A DNA stretch of 64,000 bases, taken from the NCBI RefSeq assembly GCF_016860525.1, contig NZ_BNEA01000007.1:62001-126000 (forward strand), given 5' to 3'. The position numbers and the translations under genes were made by a program. Source of the stretch: Streptomyces rubradiris (GTDB lineage: Bacteria > Actinomycetota > Actinomycetes > Streptomycetales > Streptomycetaceae). The notes under the pieces were generated by a model, which saw nothing but the letters and a program-made list of their open reading frames with translations, made no database searches and had not been told where the DNA came from. The stretch's first letter is position 1. Each line of letters begins with the position of its first letter. Shown here piece after piece: positions 2,223-25,457 of the stretch.

Positions 2223-3040
2223 ATGGGGCGGGGTACGTGGAGTCGGATTGTTCCGGACGGGCTGTAGGAGATCGCGAAGCCGCTGATCCCACCGTCGAAG
2301 GTGCGACCTCAGGGCGGGGGAACGCGGGACACCCCTGATGAGACGCTTTTCGCGGCCATCATCTACGTCCTGGCCAGCGGGTGCGCCTGGCGTCAACTTC
2401 CGCCCTGCTTCGGGGTATCGAAGTCGACCGCCCACCGCCGGCTCCTGATCTGGTCGAGAGCGGGAGTCTGGGGCCGGCTCCACGAAGCCGTGCTGCACCG
2501 CCTGGACGACGCCGGGCTCCTGGACGTCTCCCGTGTCGTCCTCGACACCGCCCACTTCAGGGCCAAAAAGGGGGTGAACACACAGGTCCGAGCCCCGTGG
2601 ACCGGGGCAAGCCGGGTGCCAAGATGCACATCCTGTCGGACGCGAACGGACTGCCCCTTCTCGTCGGCGTCTCGGCCGGCAACACCCACGACAGCGAAGG
2701 ACTGAAGCCCATGGTCGAGGGTCACCAAACGAGAAACGACCCCCACCGCGGCCGCCACTTCAAGCCCCAGCGCCTGCACGCCGACAAAGCCTACGATCGC
2801 GCCTACCTGCGGAAATGGTTACGCGGCAAGCGCATCGGAGCCCGGATCGCACGCAAAGGAATCGATTCCAGCCAACGATTGGGCCGCCGCCGCTGCGTGA
2901 TCGAACGCACCATGTCGTGGCTGTCCGGCTACCGCCGACTCAGCCCACGCTACGAACGCAATCCCCGCAACTACCTGGCCTTTCTCGGTCTCGCCGCCGC
3001 CATCTGCTGCTTCAAACGACTTGTCCGCCTCACCACATAG
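2223..3040 (+). pseudogene. IS5-family (IS427-type) transposase, two-frame, with premature stop
   Basis: The first frame encodes the N-terminal half (IYVLASGCAWRQLPPCFGVSKSTAHRRL, then DTAHFRAKKG) and the -1 frame the DDE half (GAKMHILSDANGLPLLVG, ADKAYD, RCVIERTMSWLSGYRRL). The junction is the slippery run CCAAAAAGGGGG near 2562, which fits the programmed -1 shift known in IS427-like elements. Reading from ATG 2223, codon 15 is TAG where the family has Trp (L-W-E-I), so the usual start is blocked. No clear left inverted repeat was found. The right end probably lies near 3050, where an unrelated gene fragment resumes. Confidence 0.7.
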
Positions 3041-13872: not shown

Positions 13873-14700
13873 TCAGGCGGCAGCCGCCTTGCGCTTGGCG
13901 GTGGTGCTGGCGAGGCGGAAGGACTGGGTGCCGGTCTCGATGATGTGGGCCTCGAAGGTGAGCCGGTCGACGATGGCCTGGCAGAGCCGCTTGTCGGTGA
14001 AGGTCTGGTCCCACTCGGTGAACGGCCTGTTCGAGGCGATCGCGTGCCGTTCCTCGCGTTCGGTGAAGATCTGGAACAGCAGCTCGGCGCCGTGCCGGTC
14101 GAGCTTGACGTAGCCGAGTTCGTCCAGGCAGAGCAGGTCCACCCTGCCGTACTTCTTGATCGTGCGGCCCAGCTGCTTGTCGCTGGCCGCCTCGGCCAGC
14201 TCGTTCACCAGGTTCGCCGCGGTGGTGTAGCGGACCCGCCCGCCGGCCTCCGCGATCGCGGTGCCCAGCCCGATCAGCAGGTGGGACTTTCCGGTGCCGG
14301 AGTCTCCGATCAGGCAGAGCGGGTTGCCGGCCTGGACCCAGCCGGGCTGGGCGAGGGTGCTGATGACCTCGGGCGGAACGTTGGGGTTCTTGGAGAAGTC
14401 GAAGTCCTCGATGCGCTTGTTCCGAGGGAAGCCCGCCTCCTTGACCCGCCGGAACTTGCGCCTCTCGTCCCGGTCCTCGCACTCGCTCTCCAGCAGCTCG
14501 GCCAGGAAGTCCGCGTAGGACGCGTGCTCGCGCAGGGCCTGGGCGGCGAACTCCTCCCAGCGGCCGCGGATCGTGGACAGGCCCAGGTTCCGGCAGGCCG
14601 CGTCGATCGTGGCCGACGGGTCGGCCCCGCGCTGAGCGGGCAGGCCGAAGGAGCCCCACCGCCCCGTGGTCGCCGGGGCGGGGGACGTGCTCTGCGTCAT
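13873..14700 (-). CDS. istB: IS21-family helper ATPase IstB
   Basis: 275-residue AAA+ ATPase that assists the IstA transposase in target selection. Walker A is GDSGTGKSH, Walker B is LLCLDELGY, and sensor residues lie in AIASNRPFTEW. It overlaps the 3' end of istA by 4 bp (ATGA), the standard coupled arrangement. It appears intact. Confidence 0.93.
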   Translation of the reverse strand: MTQSTSPAPATTGRWGSFGLPAQRGADPSATIDAACRNLGLSTIRGRWEEFAAQALREHASYADFLAELLESECEDRDERRKFRRVKEAGFPRNKRIEDFDFSKNPNVPPEVISTLAQPGWVQAGNPLCLIGDSGTGKSHLLIGLGTAIAEAGGRVRYTTAANLVNELAEAASDKQLGRTIKKYGRVDLLCLDELGYVKLDRHGAELLFQIFTEREERHAIASNRPFTEWDQTFTDKRLCQAIVDRLTFEAHIIETGTQSFRLASTTAKRKAAAA

Positions 14701-16374
14701 GCTGAGCCTTTCGGTTGGATAGAGAGCAACTGGCCGTAGGCGGCCAGGGAGGGTTCCGGCCGGGTGTCCGGCGGCAGTTCAGGACGACGTGCGGGCAGGG
14801 AGATCACCCGCGCGGAGACGATGTCCTGGTCTTCGGGCCCGTCCGCGGCGGCGGTCGCGGGCGGGGCGATCACGACGGGCGGGGGTCCGCCGGCGGCGGC
14901 GACGGCCTTGCGGGCCTCGATCGCGACGAGGTCCGGGGAGACCGACCCGGCCTGGAGGACCGCGTTCATGCCCGCGATCACGGCTTCGCCGGGCAGCCGG
15001 CGGTGCAGAAGGAGAACGTCGATCAGGGCCCGGGTGCCTTCTGCCCGGCCTCTGGCCTCGCGGGCCGCCGCCCAGAACGCGTCGTGAACCGGGGTGAACA
15101 GCCCGCTTTCGCGGGCCGCTGCCAGGCCGGTGGAGTTCTCCAGGGCGCCAGGCTTGTGCCGCAGGATCTCCAGGTAGTGGTCGAGGAGATCGCGGAAGCC
15201 GTAGCGGCCGGCCAGCCGCGGGTGGCGGACGACGATCTCGTGCCGGTCGAAGACCCAGACCTCGTCCGCCCGCAGCGAGACGCGGACGTTCTGGCCGATG
15301 AACCGGGCCGGCACCGAATACTTGTTCTGGCGGACCGTGATCCGCGAGGTCTTGTCGACCTTCGGCGTGAGCGTCAGCCCGACATCGAACTCCTCGAACG
15401 GCAACGGCGCCAGCAGCGGGGCCTCGTAGTCGAAATCGAAGCCGACCGACGTGGGCCGGTTGTCGATGTGCCGGGCGTCCTCGGCCACCTCGATCTGCTC
15501 GATCCGCGCGTTCAGATCGGCCAGCGTATCGACGTCGGGAACCGGGACCAGGTGCGTGCGGCGGAACCGGCCGCCCTCGTGCTCGACCCCACCCTTCTCA
15601 TGGGCGCCCTCGATGCCGGGACGGCAGTAGAACAGCGTCGAATCCGTAGTGCGAGCGGAAGGCCACCCACCTCTGCGACTCCACCCGCGAGCGGCCGAAG
15701 CAGACCTGGGAGACCGCCGGCTTGAGGTTGTCGTAACGGATGTGCCGGGTCGGGACGCCCCCGAGGATCCGGAAGGCGTCCACGTGGCCTTGCATGAACG
15801 CTTCCTGGCCCGACGTGGAGAACACCCGGTGGACGGCCTTGCCCGAATACGACAGCCTCAGCGTGAACAGCTGGCACTGCATCGGCTTGCCGTCCACCCG
15901 GACCCAGACCTCGGCGAAGTCGACCTCAGCCTCCTCACCGGGCCGGTGGAACTGCGGAACCATGCCCTCGTGCATCATCCGGGCCCGGTCCGCCTCCTCC
16001 TTGATCTGAGGCCGGCGGACCCGCAGGTAGTCGTTGAGGGTGGTGTAGGCGACGGCGGTGAAGCCGTACTCGTCGCGCAGCCGGTCCAGGATCCGCTTGT
16101 TGGTGTGCCGCTGCTTCGGCGGCGCGGTCAGATCCGACCGCAGCATCTCGTCGATCCAGCCCTTGGCCGGATCCAGCGCCGACCGGCGCATCACAGGCTC
16201 CTTGCGCTGGGGCGGCAACGCGCTGTCCAGGGCCTGGCGGACCACCCGACGGTGGACCGCGTAACGGCGGGCCAGCTCGCGGACGGAGGCGTTCTCCAGC
16301 CTCCGGTCGCGACGGATCCGCTCGAACAACTCAACACGCTGCAAAACCCGGCCTCCTGACACGGCCGTAATCAA
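14697..16374 (-). pseudogene. istA: IS21-family transposase IstA, frameshifted
   Basis: The first frame has the N-terminal helix-turn-helix (ASVRELARRYAVHRRVVRQAL) and the first two catalytic acids (EVDFAEVW, RHIRYDNLK). Near 15,632 the frame changes; the second frame continues FYCRPGIEGAHEKGGVEHEGGRF (catalytic Glu) and the C-terminal Mu-type beta domain to SIQPKGSA. One extra base in GACGCTGTTCTAC explains the shift. Without correction the product lacks the third acidic residue. Confidence 0.85.
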
Positions 16375-17333: not shown

Positions 17334-17516
17334 CGAGCTGGCTGGTTCGCGGCCCCGCTTGTCACTCAGCGACGAGCCCGCCGACGTGGGCGTGTCCATT
17401 GCGACTGTGCACGCCTCGATCTTGGCCTTGCGTCACTGCCGGGCCCGCTCATCCTGCTCGGGACCACGAAAATTCCCTTGCGGCCAAGGGCGGTGATCGC
17501 CCTACGGTTGCTCCCC

Positions 17517-18365
17517 GTGACCATTGAGATGCCCTACCAGCCACTTCCGATCGACCAGTCGGACGTGCGCTACGTCCACGGACCCGATTCCGCTCTACAG
17601 CCGGGCGTGCCCGCTGGCGAGACGGTCGAGTTCGACTGGAGGGACAGCGAGGTCTACCCGGGAACCTTCCGGAAGTTCTGGGTACACGTGCCAGCACAGT
17701 ACGACCCAGCGGAACCGGCATCCTTGATGGTGTTCCAGGATGGATGGTGGTACTTGGACCCCGCAGGGGAGGTACGCGGCGCGATCGTCCTGGACAACCT
17801 CATTCACCGCGGCGACATCCCCGTCACCATCGGCGTGTTCGTCGATCCTGGCGTCTTCCCCAACGCGGAGAACCCAAAGAACCGCAACAACGAGTACGAC
17901 GCCTTCGATGACCAGTACGTCACCTTCCTCCTCACCGAGATCATCCCGCAGGTTACAGAGCGCTATACCATTGCCCGGTCGCCCGAAAGGTGGGGCATCT
18001 GCGGCGGGAGCAGCGGCGGCAACTGCGCCTTTACCGCCGCGTGGCTGCGTCCGGACAAGTTCCGCCGCGTCATCGGATACCTGTCCAGCTTCGCGCAGAT
18101 GCCGGAAGGCAATCCCTATCCAGACCTCATCTCCCGCGTCCCCCGCAAGCCTCTGCGCATCTTCATGCAAGGCGGCCACCGCGATCTGCACTGGAATGAG
18201 CCACGGCGGAACTGGCTCGCCGAAAACCTGCATGTGGCAGCCGCTCTCGCTGAAGCGGGCTACGACTTCCGCCTTGTCCTAGGAGACGGCGGACACAGCC
18301 CCAACCACGGCGGCGTCCTGCTTCCGGACGCTCTGCGCTGGCTGTGGCGGCCCAACGCAGGTTGA
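17517..18365 (+). CDS. Alpha/beta-hydrolase, esterase D / Fes-like
   Basis: About 282 residues. It begins with an N-terminal segment similar to enterochelin-esterase-like hydrolases (GETVEFDWRDSEVYPGTFRKFWVHVPAQYDP). The nucleophile elbow is GGSSGGNCAF (Ser about residue 168), and a likely acid and His lie in HRDLHWNE and GDGGHSPNHGG. GTG 17517 is taken as the start, but ATG 17529 is possible; neither has a good ribosome binding site. The substrate is unknown. It sits downstream of the broken integrase gene. Confidence 0.78.
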   Translation: MTIEMPYQPLPIDQSDVRYVHGPDSALQPGVPAGETVEFDWRDSEVYPGTFRKFWVHVPAQYDPAEPASLMVFQDGWWYLDPAGEVRGAIVLDNLIHRGDIPVTIGVFVDPGVFPNAENPKNRNNEYDAFDDQYVTFLLTEIIPQVTERYTIARSPERWGICGGSSGGNCAFTAAWLRPDKFRRVIGYLSSFAQMPEGNPYPDLISRVPRKPLRIFMQGGHRDLHWNEPRRNWLAENLHVAAALAEAGYDFRLVLGDGGHSPNHGGVLLPDALRWLWRPNAG

Positions 18366-19744: not shown

Positions 19745-19791
19745 CCGCCGTGGTCTGCACGCCGTCGGGTACGGCGTGCAGACCACGGCGG
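19745..19791 (-). terminator. 21-bp perfect hairpin after the short peptide gene
   Basis: Two 21-bp arms (19,745-19,765 and 19,771-19,791) are exact reverse complements around a 5-nt loop, CGGGT. The hairpin starts 11 bp after the stop codon of the 23-codon ORF. It has no U-tract, as is common for actinobacterial terminators. It would end the P450-peptide transcript. Confidence 0.75.
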
Positions 19792-19802
19792 GCGTGGAAC
19801 CT

Positions 19803-19874
19803 CTAGAGCCAGACGTTGGGCTCCCAGAAGCTGGCGGGCTTGTTCCGGATGATACGGCGGATAGCAGCGAACAT
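19803..19874 (-). CDS. Putative RiPP precursor peptide (23 aa)
   Basis: A 23-codon ORF beginning MFAAIRRIIRN and ending KPASFWEPNVWL. It starts one base after the P450 stop codon. AAGGGAGGTGA, almost fully complementary to the 16S rRNA tail, sits 5 bp upstream of the ATG, and it is followed by a strong hairpin terminator. The N-terminal half is basic and amphipathic (leader-like); the C-terminal half has Phe and two Trp. Minimal two-gene RiPPs of this layout (atropopeptides such as tryptorubin, and other P450-crosslinked peptides) join aromatic side chains in such cores. The role is inferred from context only. Confidence 0.65.
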   Translation of the reverse strand: MFAAIRRIIRNKPASFWEPNVWL

Positions 19875-19875
19875 G

Positions 19876-21120
19876 TCACTCACCTCCCTTCCTCAGCGCG
19901 CACACGGGGGTCTTCAGGGCCCGTCGCAGAGCGAAGGGGCGGGGGAGGACGGAGCCGGCCACCAGGGGCCGGGCATCGGCGCCGCTGATGCTCAGGCGGG
20001 CGTCCAGGGACAGGGCGGCTACCGTCTCGCAGGCCAGGTCGTGGGCGACGCTCGCGCCGCCACAGGTGAAAGGCCCCGCGCTGAAGGGAAGGTAGGGGCC
20101 TTGTCCGCCCGCCTCGCTCCAGCGTTCGGGCCGGAAGGTCCGGGGGTGGTCCCAGCGCCGCGCATCGTGGTGCAGCAGGTAGGGGCTGACCGACAGGATC
20201 GTGCCCGCCGCGAACGGCAGGCCACCGAGTTCCAGGGGGTGGGGGACGCGCCGGCCGACCATCCACACGAACGGGCGGTGACGTGCGGCCTCGCGCACCA
20301 GCCAGTCAACGGGCCAGGGCCACGGCGGGCCGGGCGGGTGGTGAAGGCCGGCCAGTAGCAGCGACCAGGCCACCGTGTAGCCGACGTTGCCCACGATCGA
20401 GGTGAACAACAGCACCCAGAGATCGAGCACGGTCCGGTCGGTCGATTCCCCGGGACAGGCCCCGAGCACCGCGTCCAGCAGGTCCTGCGGCTCTCCCGCT
20501 CCGGGGCCCTCCGCCCGGCGGTGGTGGACATGTTCGGCAAGCGCGGCCAGCAGCCCGGGCCGCACGATTTCCGCCCGTAGCCGCTGTCGTACGGAGGGCT
20601 GGCGGGCGGTCAGGCCGGCTCCCACAGCCCGTCGCAGCTGTCGCCGCAGTACCGGCGGCGCGTCAGGGCGAAGCAGTACGTCCTCGCTGCACCGGTACAC
20701 CAGCAGCGGCCCCGCTGCGGGCCACTGGCCGACCGGGTCCAGCGCGGCTGCGGCCTCGGCCACGCGCCGGCGGTAGGCGGGCAGGTGCGCGCGCAGCAGC
20801 TTCCGCACGGCGCGGCCGAGGGCGACCTGGGCGGTGCGCGAAGGCAGCATGGCGCCGAAGAAGGGGGACATGCCGCCGTGGAAGACCGGGTCGCGCAGCA
20901 CCGTGAGCGCCAACTCGGAGTCCCTCACGCACCAGGCGCCCCAGGGGAGGTGGAACACCTCTGCTGGACTCCGCCGTGCGCATTCCTCGACATATCCCAG
21001 CGGATCACGTCGGAACCGGCGCATCTCCCTTACGCTCACCGCACCCCCGTCAGCCGCCGGCCGAGGCCGGCCGTCACCGTCGCTGCTGCCGTGGTCCTGC
21101 CCGCCGACGATTCCCGTCAT
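19876..21120 (-). CDS. Cytochrome P450, likely peptide-modifying
   Basis: 414 residues. The heme loop is LPFSAGPFTCGGASVAHDLACE (F-x-x-G-x-x-x-C-x-G, Cys about 353); the K-helix ExxR is EAAR in WLVREAARHRPF; the meander is FRPERW. The I-helix reads LLFTSIVGNVGYTVAWSLLL and lacks the usual acid-alcohol pair. The start could be internal (GTG 21039 or the ATG of MRRFRRDPLGYVEEC), since the first 30 residues are low-complexity. Its last codons (Lys-Gly-Gly-Glu-stop) form the ribosome binding site of the 23-residue peptide gene. No ferredoxin gene is adjacent. Confidence 0.85.
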   Translation of the reverse strand: MTGIVGGQDHGSSDGDGRPRPAADGGAVSVREMRRFRRDPLGYVEECARRSPAEVFHLPWGAWCVRDSELALTVLRDPVFHGGMSPFFGAMLPSRTAQVALGRAVRKLLRAHLPAYRRRVAEAAAALDPVGQWPAAGPLLVYRCSEDVLLRPDAPPVLRRQLRRAVGAGLTARQPSVRQRLRAEIVRPGLLAALAEHVHHRRAEGPGAGEPQDLLDAVLGACPGESTDRTVLDLWVLLFTSIVGNVGYTVAWSLLLAGLHHPPGPPWPWPVDWLVREAARHRPFVWMVGRRVPHPLELGGLPFAAGTILSVSPYLLHHDARRWDHPRTFRPERWSEAGGQGPYLPFSAGPFTCGGASVAHDLACETVAALSLDARLSISGADARPLVAGSVLPRPFALRRALKTPVCALRKGGE

Positions 21121-24362: not shown

Positions 24363-24990
24363 TCAGAAGTCGAAGCCGAGGGCGGTGAACTGGCCGACGC
24401 GGGTGCCGGGGCGCCCGGGAAAGCGGTCGCGGTGCCAGGCGAGGAGGTTGGCCAGGCCGCGGTGGGGCATGGCGACGCCCTTGGGGGTGCCGGTGGAGCC
24501 GGACGTGTAGATGACGTAGGCGAGGGTCGTCGGGTCGGGGCGGTGCCCGGGCGGGTCGTCGGGGAGCGCGGAGAGCGTCCGCAGGGTGGCGGGGTCGTCT
24601 GCGGCGACGGTGGTGCCGCGGTGGGCGAGCCGGGGCAGGGCGACGGTGTGGGTGAGGACGACCTCGGGGTCGGCGTCGGCGAGGACAGCCCGGAACCGGG
24701 CGTCCGGATGGGCGAGGTCGAGCGGCAGGTAGACGGCGCCCGCCTTGAGGATGGCGAGCAGGGCGACGGGCAGGTCGAGGCCGCGGGGCAGGGCGACGGC
24801 GACGATCTGCTCGGGTCCGGCGCCGAGCGCGGTGAGGTGGCGCGCCAGCCGGTTGGCGCGGGCGTCGAGTTCACGGTAGGTGAGGACCCCCTCGGCGTGG
24901 CTGCAGGCGCCGGGGGTGCGGCGGACCTGTGCCTCGAAGAGTTCGGGCACGGTGCGCCGTACGGGCACGGCGGGGATGTCCGCGGCGAGC
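24363..24990 (-). pseudogene. NRPS adenylation-domain fragment
   Basis: Contains adenylation core motifs A1-A4 in order: LTYRELDARANRLARHL, LPRGLDLPVALLAILKAGAVYLPLD, AYVIYTSGSTGTPKGVAMPHRGL and FTALGFDF, where it is cut by the transposase fragment. Upstream, AVPVRRTVPELFEAQVRRTPGA is the usual linker to a preceding domain, also cut. It is an orphan piece of a large NRPS gene that is not otherwise present in the window. Confidence 0.85.
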
Positions 24991-25019
24991 AGGGTGTGCC
25001 GTCGATAGCGGAGTTCGAA

Positions 25020-25313
25020 GTCGCCGGGCACATGGCCGCCGCGTCCGTGCCGCACTTCGGCTTGCCGATGCTCATGCGCGTGGTGACGGGCATGGCGTAC
25101 GCCGGGTTCTGGGCGGTCGCGCCCATCGCCGCCGACCGGCGCGGGAGGGCGATGTCCGTGGTCGTGTCCGGACTGGACCTGGCCGTGATTGTCGGCGTTC
25201 CCGCCGACACGCCGCTCGCGCAGCACACCAACTGGCAGGCCGACTTCCGGGCGGCGGCCGGCGCGGCGCTCGGAAACCTGGAGAACCTGCCTTCTCCGGC
25301 GGCGGCGCCCTGA
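25020..25313 (+). pseudogene. MFS transporter fragment
   Basis: MLMRVVTGMAYAGFWAVAPIAADRRGRAMSVVVSGLDLAVIVGVPADTPLAQHTNWQADFRAA is an internal piece of a drug-efflux-type MFS protein (transmembrane segments 4-5, with the RRGRAMS loop), open at neither natural end. It lies head-on against the NRPS fragment, so both ends of this block are recombination scars. Confidence 0.65.
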
Positions 25314-25316
25314 CTC

Positions 25317-25457
25317 GTTAAGGGCTTGTCCGAAGGTGTCGACGGCGTCCCGCGTCATGGCCAGCGCTTCGATTGCGGTTCCTTCGAGTTCACGGTGGAC
25401 GGTGTACCGGAAGGCTTCCGCTTGACCCTCGGCTTGCAGGGCGACCTATCGGGGCAT
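25317..25457 (-). pseudogene. Small broken ORF of unknown function
   Basis: A good ribosome binding site (GGAGG, 9 bp) precedes ATG 25457, which encodes MPR and then TAG; the frame continues VALQAEGQAEAFRYTVHRELEGTAIEALAMTRDAVDTFGQALNES. The composition looks coding, so this may be a small gene killed by one stop. Family unknown. Confidence 0.25.

Follow-up and report, generated by a model that had tools for sequence, protein, structure and literature searches.

Organization of the P450–peptide locus

On the minus strand of the window, by which we mean the whole 64-kb stretch of Streptomyces DNA analysed here, a cytochrome P450 gene is followed almost immediately by an ORF of 23 codons. Is this short ORF a gene and, if so, does it encode the substrate of the P450? 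The initial annotation described the layout as a P450 stop codon, a single base and then the ORF, and the coordinates bear this out exactly: the P450 TGA lies at 19878–19876, one base (19875) follows, and the ORF extends from its ATG at 19874 to 19803 (23 codons and a TAG stop; MFAAIRRIIRNKPASFWEPNVWL). As also claimed, its ribosome binding site, AAGGGAGGTGA (19890–19880, minus strand), is built from the final P450 codons; it occurs once in the window, both strands counted, and GGAGGTGA occurs twice. Codons 1–16 (19874–19827, minus strand), which carry the motif RRII-RNKP of the family described below, form the presumed leader. Codons 17–23 (19826–19806, minus strand) form the presumed core, WEPNVWL, within which Trp17 and Trp22 are the candidate crosslinked residues.

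The perfect 21-bp hairpin noted earlier was found 11 nt past the stop codon of the ORF (19791–19745, minus strand). It has a 5-nt loop and is probably a terminator, with a predicted RNA fold of −50.4 kcal/mol (z −9.4; none of 200 shuffles was equally good); the hairpin has no T run. In the 90 nt that follow the peptide stop, 19 of 45 family loci had perfect repeats of at least 9 bp, which are thus common, not universal.

The P450 ORF, the presumed peptide-modifying enzyme, spans 21120–19876 (minus strand) and has 414 aa when read from the listed ATG. That ATG is probably the wrong start because a relative, P0002, begins MSVREMRRF, and the corresponding site in the window P450 is a GTG at 21039, which is probably the true start. 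Pfam recognized a P450 domain (PF00067, E 1.2e-17) over residues 272–359 only. The best NCBIfam match was the model for ApyO, a RiPP crosslinking P450, at 53.8 bits, far under the cut-off of 525. Among solved structures, the sole full-length match was 9ulw_A (89 bits), labelled just Cytochrome P450. In an alignment of 50 P450s, ExxR was present in all and the FxxGxxxC heme loop in 46. The acid–Thr pair of the presumed I-helix was missing in 49, the exception being P0028, which has Glu-Thr. The lack of this pair would suit indole oxidation over the usual oxygen insertion.

The short ORF is a conserved gene

Related loci were collected from 16 named loci and from whole-genome searches at the level of genus, family, class and phylum. 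With the genome of the window counted in each case, matches were found in 12 of 392 genomes from the genus of the window (E 1e-60), 14 of 200 from its family (E 1e-25), 4 of 394 in a class-wide sample (E 1e-25) and 2 of 396 in a phylum-wide sample (E 1e-20), the last two adding little. In the family to which a Saccharothrix genome belongs, 26 of 297 genomes had matches at E 1e-20, a count that includes the hyalucidin-type relatives discussed below. Sixty loci scored at least 300 bits. Removal of 14 repeats (last 250 P450 residues identical, or the same place found twice) and of L037, which has a contig or frame break, left 45 distinct P450s, including that of the window, with a lowest score of 340.8 bits.

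We searched each locus for an ORF that started between −80 and +60 of the P450 stop, was preceded by a Shine–Dalgarno (SD) sequence, comprised 15–32 residues and had a Trp among its last 12. The SD pattern was widened after a narrower version missed known peptides of L021 (repeated as L036 and L060), L086 and L087. Such an ORF, of 17–25 residues, was present at the 3′ end of all 45 family P450s, the relatives being 47–76% identical to the window enzyme. Applied to 22 unrelated control P450s from nine genomes, the same rule returned none, and it was satisfied at 17 of 1683 random places. The controls scored below 70 bits and excluded L056, an atropopeptide P450, and L082, which overlaps a hyalucidin-type locus. 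Among more distant P450s, 19 of 20 carried such an ORF. GGAGGTG precedes 42 of the 45 family peptides and ATG starts 44. Outside the 45, a peptide was also present at L037 (at +164), behind the partial P450 of L045 (165 bits) and at L111, a copy on an Embleya plasmid (MMAIIRRILTNTPPLIWNPKDPW).

The ORF is also conserved as protein. In the group of eight members to which the window peptide belongs, pN/pS pooled over 28 non-independent pairs was 0.37 in frame and 0.98 and 1.72 in the other two frames. Differences from the window sequence fell at codon positions 1, 2 and 3 in 24, 10 and 41 cases, respectively. Residues that never varied included Pro13, Trp17, Pro19, Trp22, Leu23 and Asn11; residues 2, 5, 9, 10, 12, 16, 18, 20 and 21 were variable. 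A chance ORF or an artefact of the P450 end is ruled out by the in-frame pN/pS together with the recurrence at 45 of 45 family P450s, 0 of 22 controls and 17 of 1683 random places. Thus, both findings that would have spoken against the initial annotation, homologous P450s lacking a short aromatic ORF and an ORF not conserved as protein, failed to appear, and the 23-residue ORF is a genuine conserved gene.

Peptide family and P450 phylogeny

A single motif fits all 45 peptides: a mostly basic pair, [IVL]-[FIL], three residues, [PT], three residues and Trp. The basic pair is mostly Arg (40 and 39 of 45 at the two positions). The N-K-P segment (Asn in 31, Lys in 33 and Pro in 43 of 45) is followed by three residues and then by the Trp. 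The initial annotation had singled out FWEPNVW-like residues as those to look for; Trp17 is invariant throughout the family, and Trp22 is present in all eight members of the window's group.

The position of the next Trp or Tyr differs among the peptides. It lies at i+2 in 25, at i+5 in 14 and at i+6 in three; in single peptides these residues occur at both i+4 and i+6 or at i+7, and one peptide has only a Phe, at i+1. The commonest tail is therefore WxW (25 of 45), which in twelve peptides reads WYWY. The tail W[ED]PxxWL occurs in eight peptides, from the window and other Streptomyces, W[DN]PAxYG in six from Nocardia, and WNPKxxW in three, two of which are named Embleya. A pattern of W-[DEN]-P-x(2,3)-[WY] recurs across the Streptomyces, Nocardia and Embleya groups. 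Three tails occur once each: WNHTWEW; WSSSGSDWE, in the L021/L036 precursor, which ends SNWSSSGSDWE and has its Trp at i+7; and WFRAS, in the L026 precursor, which ends SNSWFRAS and has a single Trp and no Tyr. The genome of the window encodes a second family P450 (L002, G000:C7:309550-310680) on the same contig, approximately 226 kb away. It is 50% identical to the first and has its precursor, MAASMRRIFSNKPARRWYWY, with a WYWY tail, directly behind it.

A rapidly built maximum-likelihood tree covered 68 P450s and was rooted over long branches on three atropopeptide P450s; in it, the 45 family P450s formed one clade (support 100). The W4W, W4Y and W5W groups were each a single clade (supports 100, 100 and 99), and the eight P450s of the window's group, Trp-[ED]-Pro-x-x-Trp-Leu, likewise formed one. 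The WxW tail required three changes on the tree. Over seven tail groups, nine label changes were counted, with a minimum of six and a mean of 37.8 for shuffled labels. The tail type therefore follows the P450 subclade, and the RRI..NKP segment and Trp17 are family-wide. As such clustering is also expected from shared descent alone, the data indicate that the pairing of enzyme and peptide is stable; they do not demonstrate selection on the pairing.

Relationship to known P450-modified RiPPs

RiPPs modified by P450s form a known class that earlier work has mined several times (PMC12299652, PMC13417212, PMC13383641 and PMC12352619). We therefore compared the window unit with the characterized groups. 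It resembles the atropopeptides (tryptorubin, scabrirubin and varsorubin) in combining one P450 with one precursor of similar size and an aromatic C-terminus. PMC11450843 defines atropopeptides by three features: a leader motif of the KSLK type, a P450 that defines the class and a Trp at core position two. Phe16-Trp17 would fit the last feature if the core started at residue 16. However, the KSLK-type motif, scanned as KSLK, RSLK, ESLK, KSRK, KPLK and PSLK, was absent from the window peptide and, among the scanned loci, occurred only in L005, L056 and L057. The P450s of these three loci form a clade separate from that of the window enzyme (branch 1.78, support 100). Membership in the atropopeptides is ruled out by the missing motif and the distant P450 clade. 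One of the three, L005, is a tryptorubin-type unit in the genome of the window itself (G000:C15, near 338678–338842). Its precursor, which ends KSLKANAWYIWY, scores 56.5 bits against NCBIfam NF038372, for which the cut-off is 33. AWYIWY is the core of tryptorubin A itself.

The nearest related group found was that of the hyalucidin-type P450s, which are approximately 33–37% identical to the window enzyme. These units also have a short precursor at the P450 3′ end, but their precursors end WYLYHHI or similar and do not have the RRI..NKP..W motif. Eighteen such sister-clade P450s (L040–L044, L065, L097–L107 and L109) have precursors ending WYLYHHI or WYVYHHI; such an ORF is missing downstream of L110, a further related P450. 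In the tree, these 19 rows and the 45 family rows fall on opposite sides (supports 90 and 100). All three sister-clade peptides tested match the hyalucidin A family model, NF053510, and none of six family peptides does so at E 10. Membership in the hyalucidin A family is ruled out on these two grounds, the absent match and the separate P450 clade. A 2026 paper by Yin et al. on hyalucidin A RiPPs reportedly speaks of tandem P450 catalysis in its title.

Across all NCBIfam precursor models, the six family peptides tested, including that of the window, gave no match. The same library recognized the tryptorubin-type L005 peptide and the three hyalucidin-type peptides, which agrees with the earlier remark that the core was not that of a recognized RiPP. 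Pfam matched none of five short peptides, and this blank is uninformative because the tryptorubin-type peptide was also missed.

Other groups were compared by description. Biarylitides likewise pair a minimal P450 with a peptide, but their precursor has five residues with a two-residue leader (as outlined in PMC13417212). Biarylitide membership is ruled out, as the window precursor has 23 residues (17–25 in the family) with a conserved leader. RiPPs with a Trp(i)–Trp(i+2) bond have been described from Amycolatopsis xylanica, Streptoalloteichus hindustanus and Streptomyces spectabilis (Hu 2023 and Liu 2024, as summarized in PMC11002830). By spacing alone, the 25 of 45 relatives with WxW tails, among them L002, could accommodate such a bond; the core of the window unit itself differs from the A. 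xylanica type in having its Trp pair at i and i+5. The cyptides roseovertin, rubrin and lapparbin contain aromatic bonds formed by P450s (Nam 2023, as summarized in PMC12299652, PMC12352619 and PMC11002830), and these are placed at i+2 or i+3 in the account given by PMC11002830. In the wide sense of the term cyptide, a short aromatic precursor beside a dedicated P450, such a pair was present at 45 of 45 family loci and at 0 of 22 controls.

Genomic neighbourhood and the probable two-gene unit

Neighbouring genes were surveyed at the window and the 16 named loci, using ORFs of at least 90 aa that passed a GC3 filter in flanks of approximately 6 kb (one locus was shorter). The P450 was the sole protein family common to all 17 loci. 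Six of the 17 had an ORF antisense to the P450; every other family was limited to three loci at most, and no conserved tailoring or protease genes were found. As no neighbour is widely shared, the unit appears to consist of two genes, and leader removal would fall to proteases encoded elsewhere. The same has been proposed for tryptorubin (in the relevant part of PMC11450843).

Around the unit, the window contains several other features. At 13873–16374 (minus strand) lies an IS21-type insertion sequence encoding an IstB ATPase (E 1.3e-59) together with a Mu-transposase C-terminal domain. At 1e-5, Pfam recognized nothing in the ORF expected to supply the remainder of the transposase. A putative esterase is encoded at 17478–18362 (plus strand; PF00756, E 2.3e-10). 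An AMP-binding (adenylation) domain at 24366–25358 (minus strand) covers profile positions 1–218 of 384 and is perhaps part of a truncated NRPS gene.

The recurrence at 45 of 45 loci, the common motif, the in-frame conservation and the lack of any other shared neighbour indicate that the P450 and the peptide very probably constitute a two-gene P450 RiPP cassette, as the initial annotation had suggested from the layout. The match of the three sister-clade peptides to a RiPP precursor model also supports this reading. It is very improbable that the ORF instead encodes a small peptide with a regulatory or coupling role towards the P450. Its tiny size and its place at the P450 end would suit such a role, but its C-terminal residues vary with the P450 subclade although Trp17 and the leader do not, and ORFs at the corresponding position in the related clade are named RiPP precursors.

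Proposed crosslink and ring size

Within the two-gene RiPP reading, the conserved segment at a fixed distance from the invariant Trp is read as a docking leader. The N-terminal segment would dock on the P450 and place Trp17 at the heme. The enzyme would then oxidize Trp17 and join it, with two hydrogens lost, to a second aromatic side chain, that of Trp22 in the window peptide. The resulting ring, WEPNVW, would span six residues and turn at Pro19, and host proteases encoded elsewhere would trim the leader. Trimmed products with one such bond (−2.016 Da) would have calculated [M+H]+ values of 941.4516 for WEPNVWL (linear 943.4672), 1088.5200 for FWEPNVWL (1090.5356) and 1175.5520 for SFWEPNVWL (1177.5676); the equivalents for L006, a relative from S. 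rimosus, are 942.4356 for WEPDVWL and 1105.4989 for YWEPDVWL. That three groups share W-[DEN]-P-x(2,3)-[WY] speaks for a Pro-turned ring. For the bond itself, the balance tips slightly towards a Trp17–Trp22 linkage. The statement as a whole, a complete two-gene cassette with leader docking, a Trp17–Trp22 ring and outside proteases, we regard as moderately probable. Counting against the Trp17–Trp22 linkage, the L026 peptide (SWFRAS) has no second Trp or Tyr.

Another P450 chemistry in the same RiPP setting is a less likely alternative: closure of the Trp17 indole onto its own backbone nitrogen, a non-aromatic bond or hydroxylation, with Trp22 serving for recognition. Trp17 is the only invariant aromatic residue, the second shifts from i+2 to i+7 and is absent as Trp or Tyr from one of 45 peptides, and P450s that bond one Trp both to its own backbone nitrogen and to Trp(i+2) are reported in PMC11002830. 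Against this, residue 22 is conserved as Trp in 8 of 8 members of the window's group and as Tyr in 6 of 6 of the W4Y group, while the residues between vary.

The rings described for P450 RiPPs in the consulted parts of PMC13192836 and PMC11002830 have three or four residues, so that a six-residue ring would be unusual. More tentatively, and with rather less than even confidence, we propose that all members share a P450 scaffold and a leader that hold one Trp at the heme, with its aromatic partner shifting in position between i+2 and i+7. Aryl-bridged macrocycles of 3, 6, 7 and 8 residues would then arise under one docking rule. If true, the larger rings would exceed those described in these sources. 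RiPP P450s are wanted as peptide macrocyclases, and a single leader and anchor Trp with natural spacings from i+2 to i+7 would make what sets ring size directly testable. The family offers ready enzyme–peptide pairs and a larger, Pro-containing ring.

The architecture is known; what may be new is a leader family with no NCBIfam match and the unusual spacing of the presumed ring residues. There is an even chance that the peptide group is already listed in published cyptide surveys, leaving the chemistry alone to be settled. These surveys report 19 groups and 11 classes of P450-modified RiPPs, as stated in PMC12299652, and similar P450s are plentiful in public genomes (at least 107 proteins at E 1e-20). 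An earlier listing may be found in Nam 2023, Hu 2023, He 2023, Liu 2024 or Yin 2026. By contrast, five family strings and one sister-clade string had no occurrence in the literature searched, which did not extend to the surveys' own text and supplements, and the family lacks an NCBIfam model for the six peptides mentioned above. The precursor genes are short, and those P450s that carry source names are mostly labelled just cytochrome P450.

A further pair was observed at L032, where a P450 40% identical to that of the window is followed by the peptide MRKFIRRLQDVTAKQAWRIW (2706–2765, plus strand). This peptide fits neither the motif of the window family nor any NCBIfam model, and the L032 type is possibly another unlisted group.
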